From Candidatus Sulfotelmatobacter kueseliae (GTDB lineage Bacteria > Acidobacteriota > Terriglobia > Terriglobales > Acidobacteriaceae): a stretch of 44,462 nt of DNA. How positions within the stretch are numbered: the first letter of the stretch is position 1; every line of letters begins with the position of its first letter. Both the position numbers and the translations under genes were made by a program. The DNA lies in NCBI GenBank assembly GCA_900290255.1, contig OMOD01000161.1, forward strand, positions 1 through 44,462. The letters run 5' to 3'. Shown here piece after piece: positions 746 to 8,041 of this stretch. The notes beneath the pieces were generated by a model. That model had not been told where the DNA came from and ran no database searches. It saw only the letters and a list, made by a program, of their open reading frames with translations.

Positions 746-1021
746 CTATCCGCCGGCGATCGAGGGAACGAGCAGCACTTCGTCGCCTTCCTGAAATGCG
801 TACTCCGGCCCGCCCAGGAAGCGGATGTCCTCTTCGTTCACGTAAATGTTGAGGAAGCGGCGAACCTGCCCTTTGTCGTCGCGCAGGTGCGGCTTCAGGT
901 CGGGAAACTTCTCGTCGAGAACCGAGAACAGCTGTTCCAGGTTCGACGCCGTGCAGGTGAGCGAACTCGCGCCGGCAGTAAGCCGCCGCAGCGCGCTCGG
1001 AATTTGTACTTTGATCGCCAT
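746..1021 (-). CDS. MoaD/ThiS-family sulfur carrier protein
   Basis: A 91-residue ubiquitin-like small protein ending in Gly-Gly, which is the defining feature of MoaD/ThiS/CysO sulfur carriers. In this family the C-terminal glycine is adenylated by an E1-like enzyme and converted to a thiocarboxylate that donates sulfur. The central part (VNEEDIRFLGG, about residues 57-67) and the final GDEVLLVPSIAGG fit the family. The ATG at 1021 follows the stop of the thrC-like gene by 2 nt, so the two are almost certainly one transcript and translationally linked. No moaE, thiG, thiF or other molybdopterin or thiamin gene is nearby. I infer that the protein serves the neighbouring PLP enzyme, possibly as sulfide donor for homocysteine, analogous in logic to the CysO-CysM pair. 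The activating E1 and any hydrolase are outside the window. Confidence 0.9.
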   Translation of the reverse strand: MAIKVQIPSALRRLTAGASSLTCTASNLEQLFSVLDEKFPDLKPHLRDDKGQVRRFLNIYVNEEDIRFLGGPEYAFQEGDEVLLVPSIAGG

Positions 1022-1023
1022 GT

Positions 1024-2349
1024 CTACGCTCCTACGCTCGCGGCTTCTTCTCGTGCGGCAATCACGCCGGGAACTTCCGCCACGTCCAGAGTCCGCCGCA
1101 GGTAGTTCTCGAACTCCACCAGCTTGGGCGCGATCGGCTGCTCGGTTCGGTAAACGCCCGCCAGCGCGTCGGTCGTCTTCAGCCCATTGCCGGTGACGCA
1201 CAGCACGGTCGTCTCCTCCGGCAGAATGCGGTCCTGCCGGTACAGCTTCGCCGCCGTGCCCACCGTCACCCCGCCGGCGGTCTCGGTGAAAATGCCTTCG
1301 GTCTCGGCCAGCAGGCGAATCGAGTCAATCACTTCCGGATCGCTCACGTCTTCGCTCCATCCGCCGCTCGACTTGATGGTCTTGATCGCGTAATGCCCGT
1401 CCGCCGGATTGCCGATCGCCAGCGAGCGCGCAATCGTCGCCGGCTTCTGTGGCTCGATCTCGGCGCTGCCCGTCTTGATCGCGGTGGAAATGGGCGAGCA
1501 TCCCGTGGCCTGCGCCCCGAAGAACTTCACTTCTTTCGCTTCGACCAGCCCCAGCTTGACCAACTCATCAAACGCCTTTTTGATCTTCGTGATCAGCGAC
1601 CCGCCGGCCATCGGACAGACAAGGTTGTCGGGCAGCCGCCAGCCCAGTTGCTCGGCGATCTCGAAGCCCACAGTCTTCGATCCCTCGGCGTAATACGGCC
1701 GCAGGTTTACGTTGACGAAGCCCCAGCGATGCTCGTCGGCAATCTGCGAGCAGAGCCGGTTGACCTGATCGTAGTTGCCGGCAATACGGACGACCTTCGC
1801 GCCGTACACATTCGTGCCCAGAATCTTTGCCGGCTCCAGGTCAGCAGGAATGAAGATCCACGCCTTCAGCCCTTCACGGGCGGCATGCGCGGCGACGGCG
1901 TTGGCCAGGTTGCCGGTCGATGAGCACGAGACGGTGTCGAATCCAAACGCGCGCGCCTGCGCCAGCGCCACCGCGACCACGCGGTCTTTGAAGCTCAGCG
2001 TGGGCAGGCAGACCGCATCATTCTTGATGTAGAGATTCCGCGCCTGCGCGCCCAGCCGCTCGGCCAGATGCGGAGCCTGCAACAGCGGCGTGAATCCAAC
2101 CGGCAGCCGCGGTTCAAAGCCCTGGGGGAGGGGTAGAAGTTCGGAGTAGCGCCACATGTTCGGCGGCCGCTGGGAAATCGCCTCGCGACTGAAAGCGCCA
2201 TGTCCATTCGACCCGCGCAAAAGTGCCGCGCGGAGCGCATCGTAGTCGTAAGTCACTTCCAGAGGAGAGAAACAGTCGTCGCAGATGGAGCGAGGCTGGT
2301 TGCCCCAGGTCCGTCCGCATTCCCGGCACCGCAGTTCGTAGTGAGCCAT
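1024..2349 (-). CDS. thrC: threonine synthase-like PLP enzyme under SAM riboswitch control
   Basis: A 441-residue fold-type II PLP enzyme of the threonine synthase family, which converts O-phosphohomoserine to threonine. A zinc-ribbon-like N-terminus (Cys8, Cys11, Cys23, Cys26) precedes the catalytic domain. The PLP lysine is Lys121 in LSFKDR, and the phosphate-binding loop is SSTGNLANAVAAHA (about residues 143-156). A late CVTGNGLKTTDAL motif is also typical. The upstream region carries a SAM-I riboswitch and terminator, and the next gene is a Gly-Gly sulfur carrier. High SAM shutting off true threonine synthesis would make little metabolic sense. I therefore infer that this paralogue may make homocysteine (or another sulfur amino acid) from a phosphohomoserine-type substrate and carrier-bound sulfur. 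The family assignment is secure; the altered substrate is a hypothesis. A genuine thrC could exist elsewhere in the genome. Confidence 0.9.
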   Translation of the reverse strand: MAHYELRCRECGRTWGNQPRSICDDCFSPLEVTYDYDALRAALLRGSNGHGAFSREAISQRPPNMWRYSELLPLPQGFEPRLPVGFTPLLQAPHLAERLGAQARNLYIKNDAVCLPTLSFKDRVVAVALAQARAFGFDTVSCSSTGNLANAVAAHAAREGLKAWIFIPADLEPAKILGTNVYGAKVVRIAGNYDQVNRLCSQIADEHRWGFVNVNLRPYYAEGSKTVGFEIAEQLGWRLPDNLVCPMAGGSLITKIKKAFDELVKLGLVEAKEVKFFGAQATGCSPISTAIKTGSAEIEPQKPATIARSLAIGNPADGHYAIKTIKSSGGWSEDVSDPEVIDSIRLLAETEGIFTETAGGVTVGTAAKLYRQDRILPEETTVLCVTGNGLKTTDALAGVYRTEQPIAPKLVEFENYLRRTLDVAEVPGVIAAREEAASVGA

Positions 2350-2366
2350 AGCGCTACTCGCTTTCT

Positions 2367-2467
2367 CAAAGTCTCAAAGCTTCAAAGCTTTGAAGGTTTC
2401 AAAGTTTCAAGGTTGGTCGTGCACTGTAGCCACCTTGAAACCCTGAAACTTTGCCACTTTGAAACCT
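2367..2467. repeat. family A octamer inverted repeat (GTTTCAAR type), copy 1
   Basis: Tandem degenerate 8-bp units of the GTTTCAAA/GTTTCAAG type form the left arm. Complementary CTTGAAAC units form the right arm, with about 25 unique bases between them. It lies in the leader of the thrC-like gene, between the riboswitch terminator and the start codon, so read-through transcripts would carry a large stem-loop just before translation starts. Copies 2 and 3 are at 24984 and 25413. Confidence 0.8.
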
Positions 2468-2511
2468 AGTTCTTCGCGAGTAGCTGAGGACGAGCCGGAA
2501 AAAGCGGCCTT

Positions 2512-2551
2512 AAAAACAAAGGCCTCTTTTTCCAGGAAGAGGAAAAAGAGG
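2512..2551 (-). terminator. intrinsic terminator of the SAM riboswitch
   Basis: On the minus strand an 11-bp perfect stem (CCTCTTTTTCC at 2551-2541, GGAAAAAGAGG at 2533-2523) with a 7-nt loop is followed by CC and then TTTGTTTTT (2520-2512). It lies about 30 nt downstream of the aptamer and about 160 nt upstream of the start codon, the arrangement of a transcription-terminating S-box switch. The 3' half of the stem can also pair with 2509-2497 (GGCCGCTTTTTCC). That alternative hairpin places the T-run in its loop. I could not identify a clear conventional antiterminator linking the aptamer P1 to this stem. Confidence 0.85.
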
Positions 2552-2580
2552 TCATCGGATGCAGATACAGCTCGCAGCCG

Positions 2581-2695
2581 AATCTCATGTTCCCTGTTTC
2601 CAGGAGAGAGTTGGCACCAGCATCAGGGATATATGATCCCGGGTCGGTTGCCGTGGCGTCTCAGGGCTCGTCCCTCAGCCACTCTGCATGAAATT
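2581..2695 (-). ncRNA. SAM-I (S-box) riboswitch aptamer
   Basis: Reading the minus strand, the S-box consensus blocks appear in order. They are CAGAGTGGCTGAGGGAC, GCCCTGAGACGCC, CGGCAACC, then GGTGCCAACTC, a CCTG-GAAA-CAGG hairpin (P4) and GAACATGAGATT. The closing helix P1 pairs AATTTCATG (2695-2687) with CATGAGATT (2589-2581), nine base pairs including one G-U. These are the conserved core, kink-turn and binding-pocket blocks of the SAM-I class, which in known cases represses methionine, SAM and sulfur assimilation genes when SAM is plentiful. A terminator follows directly and the first gene downstream is the thrC-like/MoaD pair. I identified it by eye from the consensus; a covariance-model search would be the formal test. 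Confidence 0.93.
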
Positions 2696-2729
2696 CAGGT
2701 CCGCCCCGAAAGGCAGACTTGTTCTGCGT

Positions 2730-2758
2730 ATACTACCGAAACTCGGTGCCCGCGTCAA
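2730..2758 (-). promoter_or_regulatory. sigma70-type promoter of the riboswitch operon
   Basis: On the minus strand TTGACG (2758-2753) and TAGTAT (2735-2730) are separated by exactly 17 bp. Transcription would start near 2723, about 28 nt before the aptamer P1. Position, spacing and hexamers all fit a housekeeping promoter driving riboswitch, thrC-like gene and MoaD-like gene. Confidence 0.75.
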
Positions 2759-6463: not shown

Positions 6464-8041
6464 TTACTTGGCGGATTTGGCACGGTTCGAACGCTCCTGC
6501 AGGGCCAGCAGAACGACCCGCAGCATCTCGTCCCAGGGCGCGGGCTTGCCGCTCCAGATTTCAAACTGCCGGGCGGCCTGGTGGACGAACATTTCGATTC
6601 CCGGGATGACCTGCGCGCCCCGTTCCTGGGCCAGTTTCATAAGCCGGGTTTCGGCCGGATCGTACACCATATCAAAGACATAGCGGGCATTGATCTCTTT
6701 TTCCTCGAGCGGCGACTCGCGGGTATTTCCCATGCCGACCGGGGTCGCGTTGACGATGACGTCGAAGGCCATTTTCTTGAGATCGGCCCGCTTCATGATG
6801 CGGGCCCGGGCGCGATGGGCCAGTTTCCTGGCCGGAGCGGCACTGCGGTTGAGAATGTAGACTTCCGCTCCCCGTTCCTTCAGCCCAAAAACCGCGGCAC
6901 GGGCTGCCCCCCCGGCTCCGAGGACCAGGATGCGTGCCCCTTCCAGCGTGGGCAGGCGGCGCTCGAGTGGCCGGACAACGCCGGCGGCATCCGTATTGAA
7001 TCCGTACAGCTTGCCGTCCTGCGCCCGCACCACGGTATTGCAGGCTCCGATTTTGGCGGTGTGCGAATCAGTATTGTCGAGGTGCGGCAGAATCGCTTCT
7101 TTGTACGGCATGGTGACGCTGATGCCGTAGATCGGAATCTCGCGCACGCAGGTCAGAAGATCTTTCAGCGTTTTGGCGTGCAGAGCGAGAAAAACCGCGT
7201 TGACATTCTCCCGCCGGAAAGCCGCATTCATGATGGCGGGCGAGAGCGAGTGCGCGATGGGATCGCCGACTACGCCGTACACCCGGGTAGCCGCGTCCAC
7301 TTGCTCGATGCGGTATACGCTGCGCAATTCCTGCGCTGTCACCTGGCCCGGAGCGGTGGCTTCGCTGGAACTGGCCGCAGCGAAGGTGAAGACGCTGCCC
7401 GCGCGCAGTCCCAGCACCCGGCTGATGATGCCTTGTTCGCCCATGCACATGCCGACCAGCGAATGCCGGTCGCCCTCCCGCCCCAGGAACTTGATCATGG
7501 TGACGTTGTCGGAGAGTGTGGTCGCCGTACTGACGATCTTGTAAAAGTCGGCGGGGCAGGCCAGCATTTTTCCCAGCGTTTCGTCCAGTTTCTTGGTGGC
7601 GCGAAAATCGTGGAACGAAAGAATCAAAGCCGCCCGGCTGCGCAATCGATCGAGTTGTGCCGGCTTGCATTTGCTGGCCGTTTGCAGTTCCACATCCACC
7701 AGCGGACAACCCGCCATCGCCGCCTTGCTGAGGACCTCCAGTTGCGCCGCGATCGAGCCACGGAACTTGCCGCCGCTGGCGGCGCGGCGGCAGGTCGCGA
7801 TCACCACCGTTGAAGGATGGGACTCGGTGAAACGCTTGATCCGAGCCATGGCCAGGCCGGGCTTGGAGAGATAGTCCAACCTGAACTCCAGGAAGGAATT
7901 ATCCCGGACCAGGGCCTCGGCCTTTTCGGCCATTTCGTTGGCCTCGGAACCGATCACTGCCACGCAAACCCGTGGCAAACGCAAGGGAAGCAGACGCGGC
8001 GCATACGCAGAAGAAGAGTCCATCGTTCTAGATTCGGACAC
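6464..8041 (-). CDS. aroDE: bifunctional 3-dehydroquinate dehydratase / shikimate dehydrogenase
   Basis: A 525-residue fusion catalysing two successive steps of the shikimate pathway. The N-terminal type I dehydroquinase has the EFRLDYL motif (about 52-58), catalytic His144 in LSFHDF and Schiff-base Lys168 in FYKIVSTA. The C-terminal shikimate dehydrogenase begins near YGVVGDPIAHSLSP (about 255), with VTMPYKEAILPHLD carrying the catalytic Lys, GACNTVV, and the NADP-binding LVLGAGGAARAA. The same fusion is known from plants and some bacteria. The frame opens with GTG at 8041; an in-frame ATG lies at 8023 (MDSSSAY). Neither has a clear ribosome-binding site. The promoter at 8071-8099 fits either. 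Confidence 0.92.
   Translation of the reverse strand: MSESRTMDSSSAYAPRLLPLRLPRVCVAVIGSEANEMAEKAEALVRDNSFLEFRLDYLSKPGLAMARIKRFTESHPSTVVIATCRRAASGGKFRGSIAAQLEVLSKAAMAGCPLVDVELQTASKCKPAQLDRLRSRAALILSFHDFRATKKLDETLGKMLACPADFYKIVSTATTLSDNVTMIKFLGREGDRHSLVGMCMGEQGIISRVLGLRAGSVFTFAAASSSEATAPGQVTAQELRSVYRIEQVDAATRVYGVVGDPIAHSLSPAIMNAAFRRENVNAVFLALHAKTLKDLLTCVREIPIYGISVTMPYKEAILPHLDNTDSHTAKIGACNTVVRAQDGKLYGFNTDAAGVVRPLERRLPTLEGARILVLGAGGAARAAVFGLKERGAEVYILNRSAAPARKLAHRARARIMKRADLKKMAFDVIVNATPVGMGNTRESPLEEKEINARYVFDMVYDPAETRLMKLAQERGAQVIPGIEMFVHQAARQFEIWSGKPAPWDEMLRVVLLALQERSNRAKSAK

Follow-up and report, generated by a model that had tools for sequence, protein, structure and literature searches.

Why should a gene that resembles threonine synthase be placed under an S-adenosylmethionine (SAM) riboswitch and be followed at once by a gene for a sulfur carrier protein? 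This question is raised by a locus on contig OMOD01000161.1 of Candidatus Sulfotelmatobacter kueseliae (Acidobacteriota), whose full 44,462 nucleotides (nt) were analysed and are called the window in the following. The window is the entire contig 21 of a draft genome (G000; 5.39 Mb in 198 contigs, 96.1% complete, 8.46% contaminated). A reading of the letters alone, hereafter the original prediction, had proposed that the enzyme joins carrier-bound sulfide to phosphohomoserine to make homocysteine. We conclude with good, though not complete, confidence that the locus is an acidobacterial metM-metO operon, repressed by SAM, whose products would form homocysteine from O-phosphohomoserine with carrier-bound sulfur. 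This chemistry is assigned to the operon by homology to MetM and MetO. The locus represents a well-supported acidobacterial MetM/MetO system, the route itself having been described in 2024 in Streptomyces.

All elements of the locus lie on the minus strand, and each detail of the original prediction (promoter, S-box aptamer, terminator, Lys121, 2-nt gap and Gly-Gly carrier) proved correct and in place. Upstream stands a sigma-70-type promoter-like site (TTGACG-17-TAGTAT; 2730-2758), the single one between positions 600 and 2900, where shuffled sequences hold 0.4 on average. It is followed by a SAM-I (S-box) riboswitch aptamer at 2582-2694, which matches RF00162 over the complete model (positions 1-108 of 108) at 69.3 bits (E 2.9e-14), against a gathering score of 44.4, as anticipated for this leader; it is the sole Rfam match at gathering threshold within the 44 kb window. 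A probable intrinsic terminator with an 11-pair stem and a T-rich tail (2523-2551) would form the expression platform. Terminator-like sites alone are not rare in the region (four found, shuffle mean 2.7); the fold of the leader is stronger than that of its shuffles (z -3.22; equalled by one of 200), and SAM-dependent termination is predicted at this leader, where the terminator-like stem is present. The metM-type gene (1024-2349) encodes a threonine-synthase-like pyridoxal phosphate (PLP) enzyme of 441 amino acids (aa), in which the PLP lysine of the SFKDR motif is residue 121. At E 0.01 it matches PF00291 alone among Pfam families (219 bits). The metO-type reading frame (746-1021) starts 2 nt past its stop codon and encodes a 91-aa carrier of the ThiS/MoaD family (PF02597, 43.7 bits) that ends in PSIAGG.

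Hasebe et al. (2024; AEM 90:e01247-24) reportedly described MetM of Streptomyces albulus as a threonine-synthase-like homocysteine synthase that acts on O-phosphohomoserine together with the carrier MetO, whose thiocarboxylated form is said to be the sulfur source. Streptomyces genomes are, to our knowledge, without the canonical homoserine acyltransferase routes. In the available part of a 2025 paper (PMC12172450), Streptomyces MetM is given as the homocysteine synthase converting O-phosphohomoserine to homocysteine, and is said to prevent methionine auxotrophy, while S. albulus metO is assigned to a sulfur carrier family and metM is preceded by a SAM riboswitch. The threonine-synthase-like enzyme, adjacent carrier gene and upstream SAM riboswitch of this account are all found in the window too. 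The original prediction knew of no enzyme of the threonine synthase family with a role in homocysteine synthesis; since MetM had been reported in 2024, the claim of a new route was dropped. Among the matches listed for acidobacterial methionine synthesis with SAM switches, judged by title and start of the abstract, only PMC12172450 bears on this pair, and a literature search on the active site of threonine synthase gave nothing of use.

As an actinobacterial stand-in for S. albulus MetM we took Nonomuraea gerenzanensis, whose 11.85-Mb replicon is filed among plasmids. Its enzyme is 52.2% identical to that of the window, and its locus likewise has an RF00162 match upstream (68.7 bits) and a 91-aa carrier, ending in AGG, downstream. 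The remaining matches listed from the plasmid collection (of 134 records) reach at most 35% identity and many are annotated as thrC. The window system differs from that of S. albulus in belonging to the Acidobacteriota, with 52% identity to the Nonomuraea homologue. With it, a methionine route known from one 2024 report reaches a major soil phylum.

Is the enzyme nonetheless an ordinary duplicate threonine synthase, SAM-controlled and next to a MoaD-like gene by mere chance? It scores above the cut-off of the threonine synthase equivalog TIGR00260 (267 bits, cut-off 167), a match that speaks for such a duplicate, as does that to 1uim, a threonine synthase of solved structure (E 3e-47). TIGR00260 does not separate it from a second thrC of the same genome (274 bits), which lies on contig 139, is 33% identical to the window enzyme and is followed by thrB; a probable homoserine dehydrogenase gene was found on contig 57. 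The second thrC, whose existence the original prediction had left to be checked, rules out that the window gene is the sole threonine synthase of the genome. Against a chance neighbourhood stands the conservation of the unit. Among the best 80 of 157 stretches that encode a relative in one scan of named species genomes, a carrier match is present in 75, and of the 27 loci that were scanned with Rfam, 25 carry RF00162 ahead of the metM-type gene. The arrangement, whose co-occurrence across acidobacterial genomes the original prediction had wished to see checked, is conserved. Repression of threonine synthesis by SAM would, moreover, make little regulatory sense. We regard a mere duplicate as very improbable.

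One of the five loci lacking a carrier match, L065, stops 20 nt past the metM-type gene; the other four (L052, L059, L086 and L104) show none although between about 0.6 and 5 kb are available. A carrier at a distance of 1.5 kb from the metM-type gene is present in L099. RF00162 was missed in L098 and in L095, where the stretch extends no more than 191 nt upstream. Of the 80 loci, 52 match a crude S-box pattern; L082, L042, L070, L081 and L099, the last four with at most 208 nt upstream, have neither a pattern match nor an Rfam scan.

The phylogeny likewise sets the enzyme apart from threonine synthases. In a tree of 60 rows, for which the tool warned of long branches near the root, 41 metM-type rows form a single clade (support 100/100) on a long stem, which again argues against a simple duplicate. 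The other 19 rows comprise three annotated ThrC, one unannotated haloarchaeal protein, the second thrC of the window's genome and 14 more thrC-like sequences. Within the clade, subgroup A (25 rows; 96/90) unites the window with Nonomuraea and with every carrier-linked row except one, and subgroup B holds the other 16 (100/98). The window enzyme shares with ThrC the family, the SFKD motif with the PLP lysine and probably the substrate O-phosphohomoserine. It differs in two loops, conserved in the 19 ThrC-type rows, which in metM-type rows are replaced by N(V/I)N(L/M)R-(Y/F)Y-EG(S/A)K and A(G/S)G(S/T/A). Subgroup A shows further changes: Thr357 (24/25 rows) stands in place of a Pro conserved in all subgroup B and 19/19 ThrC-type rows; Ser224 (25/25) corresponds to Ala in subgroup B and to Lys or Gln in ThrC-type rows; and Lys255 (25/25, and 2/16 in subgroup B) to Gly or Ala in the latter. 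The aligned signature positions presumably contact phosphate or PLP in the Thermus threonine synthase. Taken as a warning, these data suggest that the product of a gene annotated as threonine synthase may instead form homocysteine.

From where would the carrier obtain its sulfur? In four acidobacterial relatives (the f18 loci L118, L119, L167 and L168) E1 comes first, then a cysteine-desulfurase-like gene, then metM and finally metO, with RF00162 before the first gene and some 2.3-2.4 kb ahead of metM; the Pfam assignments refer to the L119 copies, and a fifth f18 genome, G215, holds a metM fragment only. Among the comparative data, this operon, a further difference from S. albulus, speaks most strongly for the predicted sulfur relay into the metM enzyme; it points to the likely sulfur suppliers of MetO and is hard to fit with an ordinary threonine synthase. 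We propose that at low SAM the S-box leader would permit transcription of metM-metO. The C-terminal glycine of MetO would be adenylated by a ThiF/MoeB-type E1 and converted to the thiocarboxylate (MetO-COSH) with sulfur from a cysteine desulfurase or a rhodanese domain. MetM could then bind O-phosphohomoserine as a PLP aldimine and eliminate phosphate as in threonine synthase, with carrier sulfur being added at C-gamma where threonine synthase adds water at C-beta, which would yield homocysteine. Its methylation to methionine and conversion to SAM would switch the operon off. That an E1 and a desulfurase serve MetO, and that a homocysteinyl intermediate is released, we infer.

A probable desulfurase also appears in the window's own genome. 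A second SAM-I riboswitch (RF00162, 66.7 bits) lies at positions 4835-4946 of contig 30 (3836-3947 of stretch L141), about 120 nt upstream of a gene of the class-V aminotransferase family, with a weak terminator-like stem between them; the composition of contig 30 resembles that of the host contigs. The gene is read from its sequence as a probable cysteine desulfurase, and a SAM riboswitch before such a gene is among the new details that emerge here.

Other destinations of the carrier have to be considered, namely molybdopterin, tRNA thiolation or CysO-like cysteine synthesis, with the PLP enzyme nearby for regulatory reasons only. The NCBIfam matches of the window carrier, SAMP1 and MoaD, both below cut-off, would be compatible with this, and MetO is 41% identical to a CysO-like carrier on contig 57. 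The latter, however, ends in GGAA and adjoins an E1 of its own, one of two ThiF-type E1 genes in the genome, fused to a rhodanese domain; a MoaD-MoaE fusion on contig 174 fits molybdopterin synthase, as judged from a MoaE match under the curated cut-off, and makes a molybdopterin carrier in the window unlikely. SAM control would suit methionine synthesis better than any of these roles, and we rate them, taken together, as extremely improbable.

Two known systems help to place the pair. In Mycobacterium CysO/CysM/Mec+, a fold-type II PLP enzyme likewise uses a carrier thiocarboxylate on a phosphorylated amino acid, but the product is cysteine, the substrate O-phosphoserine and the enzyme a member of the cysteine synthase family. 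In the HcyS/HcyD/HcyF/MetZ system of Wolinella succinogenes the carrier thiocarboxylate is the sulfur donor for homocysteine, as proposed here, but MetZ is a PLP enzyme of Cys/Met metabolism (PF01053) that acts on acylated homoserine; the window locus holds no PF01053 partner, its enzyme being a threonine synthase relative.

If metM-metO supplies homocysteine, it might take the place of the acyltransferase MetX. Across a phylum sample of 297 genomes, which are related so that p-values overstate their independence, 70 match metM with at least 412 bits, and another two carry fragments at 61-65% identity; among the matches listed, the next-best reaches 239 bits and 37% identity and the rest at most 39% identity. 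A clear MetX (at least 215 bits) occurs in the window's family in 1/25 genomes with metM and in 5/6 without (Fisher p 2e-4), and in the phylum in 6/72 with metM and 67/225 others (p 1.3e-4). When HTS homoserine acyltransferases are counted with MetX, the figures are 2/25 against 5/6 in the family and 11/72 against 87/225 in the phylum (p 1.7e-4). This near-complementarity offers a possible reason why most sampled genomes of the window's family have no clear MetX. Because most genomes without metM also have no clear MetX, other routes or gaps exist.

Several observations weigh against a dedicated homocysteine operon, in addition to the equivalog match mentioned above. The contrast in MetX depends on the threshold and weakens when this is loosened to admit all TIGR01392 matches with E values up to 1e-30, weaker ones of about 111-149 bits among them: MetX is then seen in 7/25 family genomes with metM and 5/6 without (p 0.02), and in 14/72 versus 90/225 in the phylum (p 0.0017). 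Under stricter search filters, 36 of the 72 metM-type genomes have RF00162 no more than 600 nt upstream and five have it 1.3-2.4 kb upstream; in the other 31 it was not seen upstream. Twelve subgroup B rows (L120, L124-L133 and L137) adjoin hom or thrB and show no carrier match in the stretches read. Finally, according to the part of PMC12172450 at hand, a Microcystis ThrC that is 51.6% identical to MetM and adjoins a metO-like gene is reported to act both as a threonine synthase and as a deaminase, and no rise in methionine was seen where it was highly expressed.

The last two points would favour a bifunctional enzyme that makes threonine or deaminates it besides forming homocysteine, with carrier and riboswitch setting how much goes to methionine, and so would the single thrC-like match in some subgroup B genomes (G028, G293). 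Of the other subgroup B rows, L173 combines a SAM switch with a sulfite reductase gene and shows no carrier match in the stretch read, L121 has a SAM switch and metO, and L169 and L172 a SAM switch. In G229, a SAM switch precedes a homoserine dehydrogenase gene and a subgroup B gene. For the window, bifunctionality is countered by the further thrC beside thrB, by at least one additional thrC-like match in each of the 24 sampled family genomes with intact metM (G112, with a metM fragment, has two, one of them not listed), and by Thr357, Ser224 and Lys255 of subgroup A, which differ from ThrC-type rows. We hold a bifunctional enzyme to be unlikely, though less so than a plain duplicate.

The main result against exclusivity of the metM-metO route comes from contig 45 of the window's own genome. 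The original prediction had asked whether metX and metY are missing: a MetX match was not found at E 1e-3, in a search that was positive in 9 of 14 control genomes, but a MetY-like gene (TIGR01326, 617 bits; cut-off 495) followed by an HTS homoserine acyltransferase gene lies at positions 37850-40237 of contig 45 (7851-10238 of stretch L138). Judged from these two genes, metM-metO need not be the sole homocysteine route in the genome. The contig may be an island or a contaminant, because its GC content (0.567 against 0.59-0.61) and its tetranucleotide use deviate. We read the genes around HTS as glycosyltransferase-like and adenylation-domain-like; three proteins of the stretch were compared with Pfam, of which the first matched redox families and another HTS, while the third had no match. 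HTS relatives occur in 6/21 members of the genus, this genome included, and in 28/300 family genomes, for which reason the gene can be a real accessory gene, and mere contamination is not established. The proposed synthesis of homocysteine from phosphohomoserine and carrier sulfide agrees with the available account of S. albulus MetM/MetO, with the separate thrC-thrB pair, the missing MetX match, the near-complementary distribution of MetX and the linkage to E1 and desulfurase genes in relatives; one of the results that the original prediction had named as refuting, a complete metX/metY pathway, is in part found in the HTS and MetY-like pair.

A final question concerns the end of the carrier. 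The motif IAGG occurs near the C-terminus in all 75 loci with a carrier match, but is terminal in only six; in the other 69, in a further difference from S. albulus that the window does not share, residues follow the diglycine: exactly two, of variable sequence, in 49 loci, and one, three or 9-29 in 20. (A wider carrier listing of 97 rows includes duplicates and other carriers.) In five loci of Acidobacteriaceae type (L092, L093, L094, L100 and L109) the tail is rich in cysteine and follows a common pattern, CCSYCGxE(E/D)C, whereas the carriers of the window, Nonomuraea and f18 end at GG. In HcyS, whose precursor has a residue after GG, and in QbsE the tail is removed after the diglycine, and by this analogy a proteolytic maturation step is likely for the tailed carriers. 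One may go further and suppose, tentatively and with more doubt than confidence, that MetM and MetO form the usual homocysteine route of the window's family and its relatives, as a whole SAM-controlled relay of E1, cysteine desulfurase, carrier and synthase, in which MetO would usually be a pro-carrier whose variable or, in some Acidobacteriaceae, conserved cysteine-rich tail is cut before thiocarboxylation. No description of a proteolytic control point for MetO was found in the literature searched, and the tails beyond Gly-Gly are likewise a new detail.

A JAMM protease was sought with the JAB protein of locus L122 as query against 173 loci, about 0.78 Mb of stretches from genomes G217 and G000, and the window; in these partial genomes it matched its own locus only. 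L122 itself (genome G291) combines metM-metO with, on the opposite strand, a gene read as cysK/M-like, the JAB protease, a fusion of a CysO-like carrier with a MoeZ-like E1, and MetY-like and MetX-like genes.

Some minor features were noted besides. Two imperfect inverted repeats with 29-nt arms lie in the window, one just upstream of metM (2386-2467; arms 24 nt apart) and one upstream of the promoter-like site (2781-2915; 77 nt apart). In L076, positions 7878-7923 of the minus strand match the Acido-Lenti-1 RNA (RF01687, 43.8 bits), which Rfam types as a small RNA (sRNA) gene.

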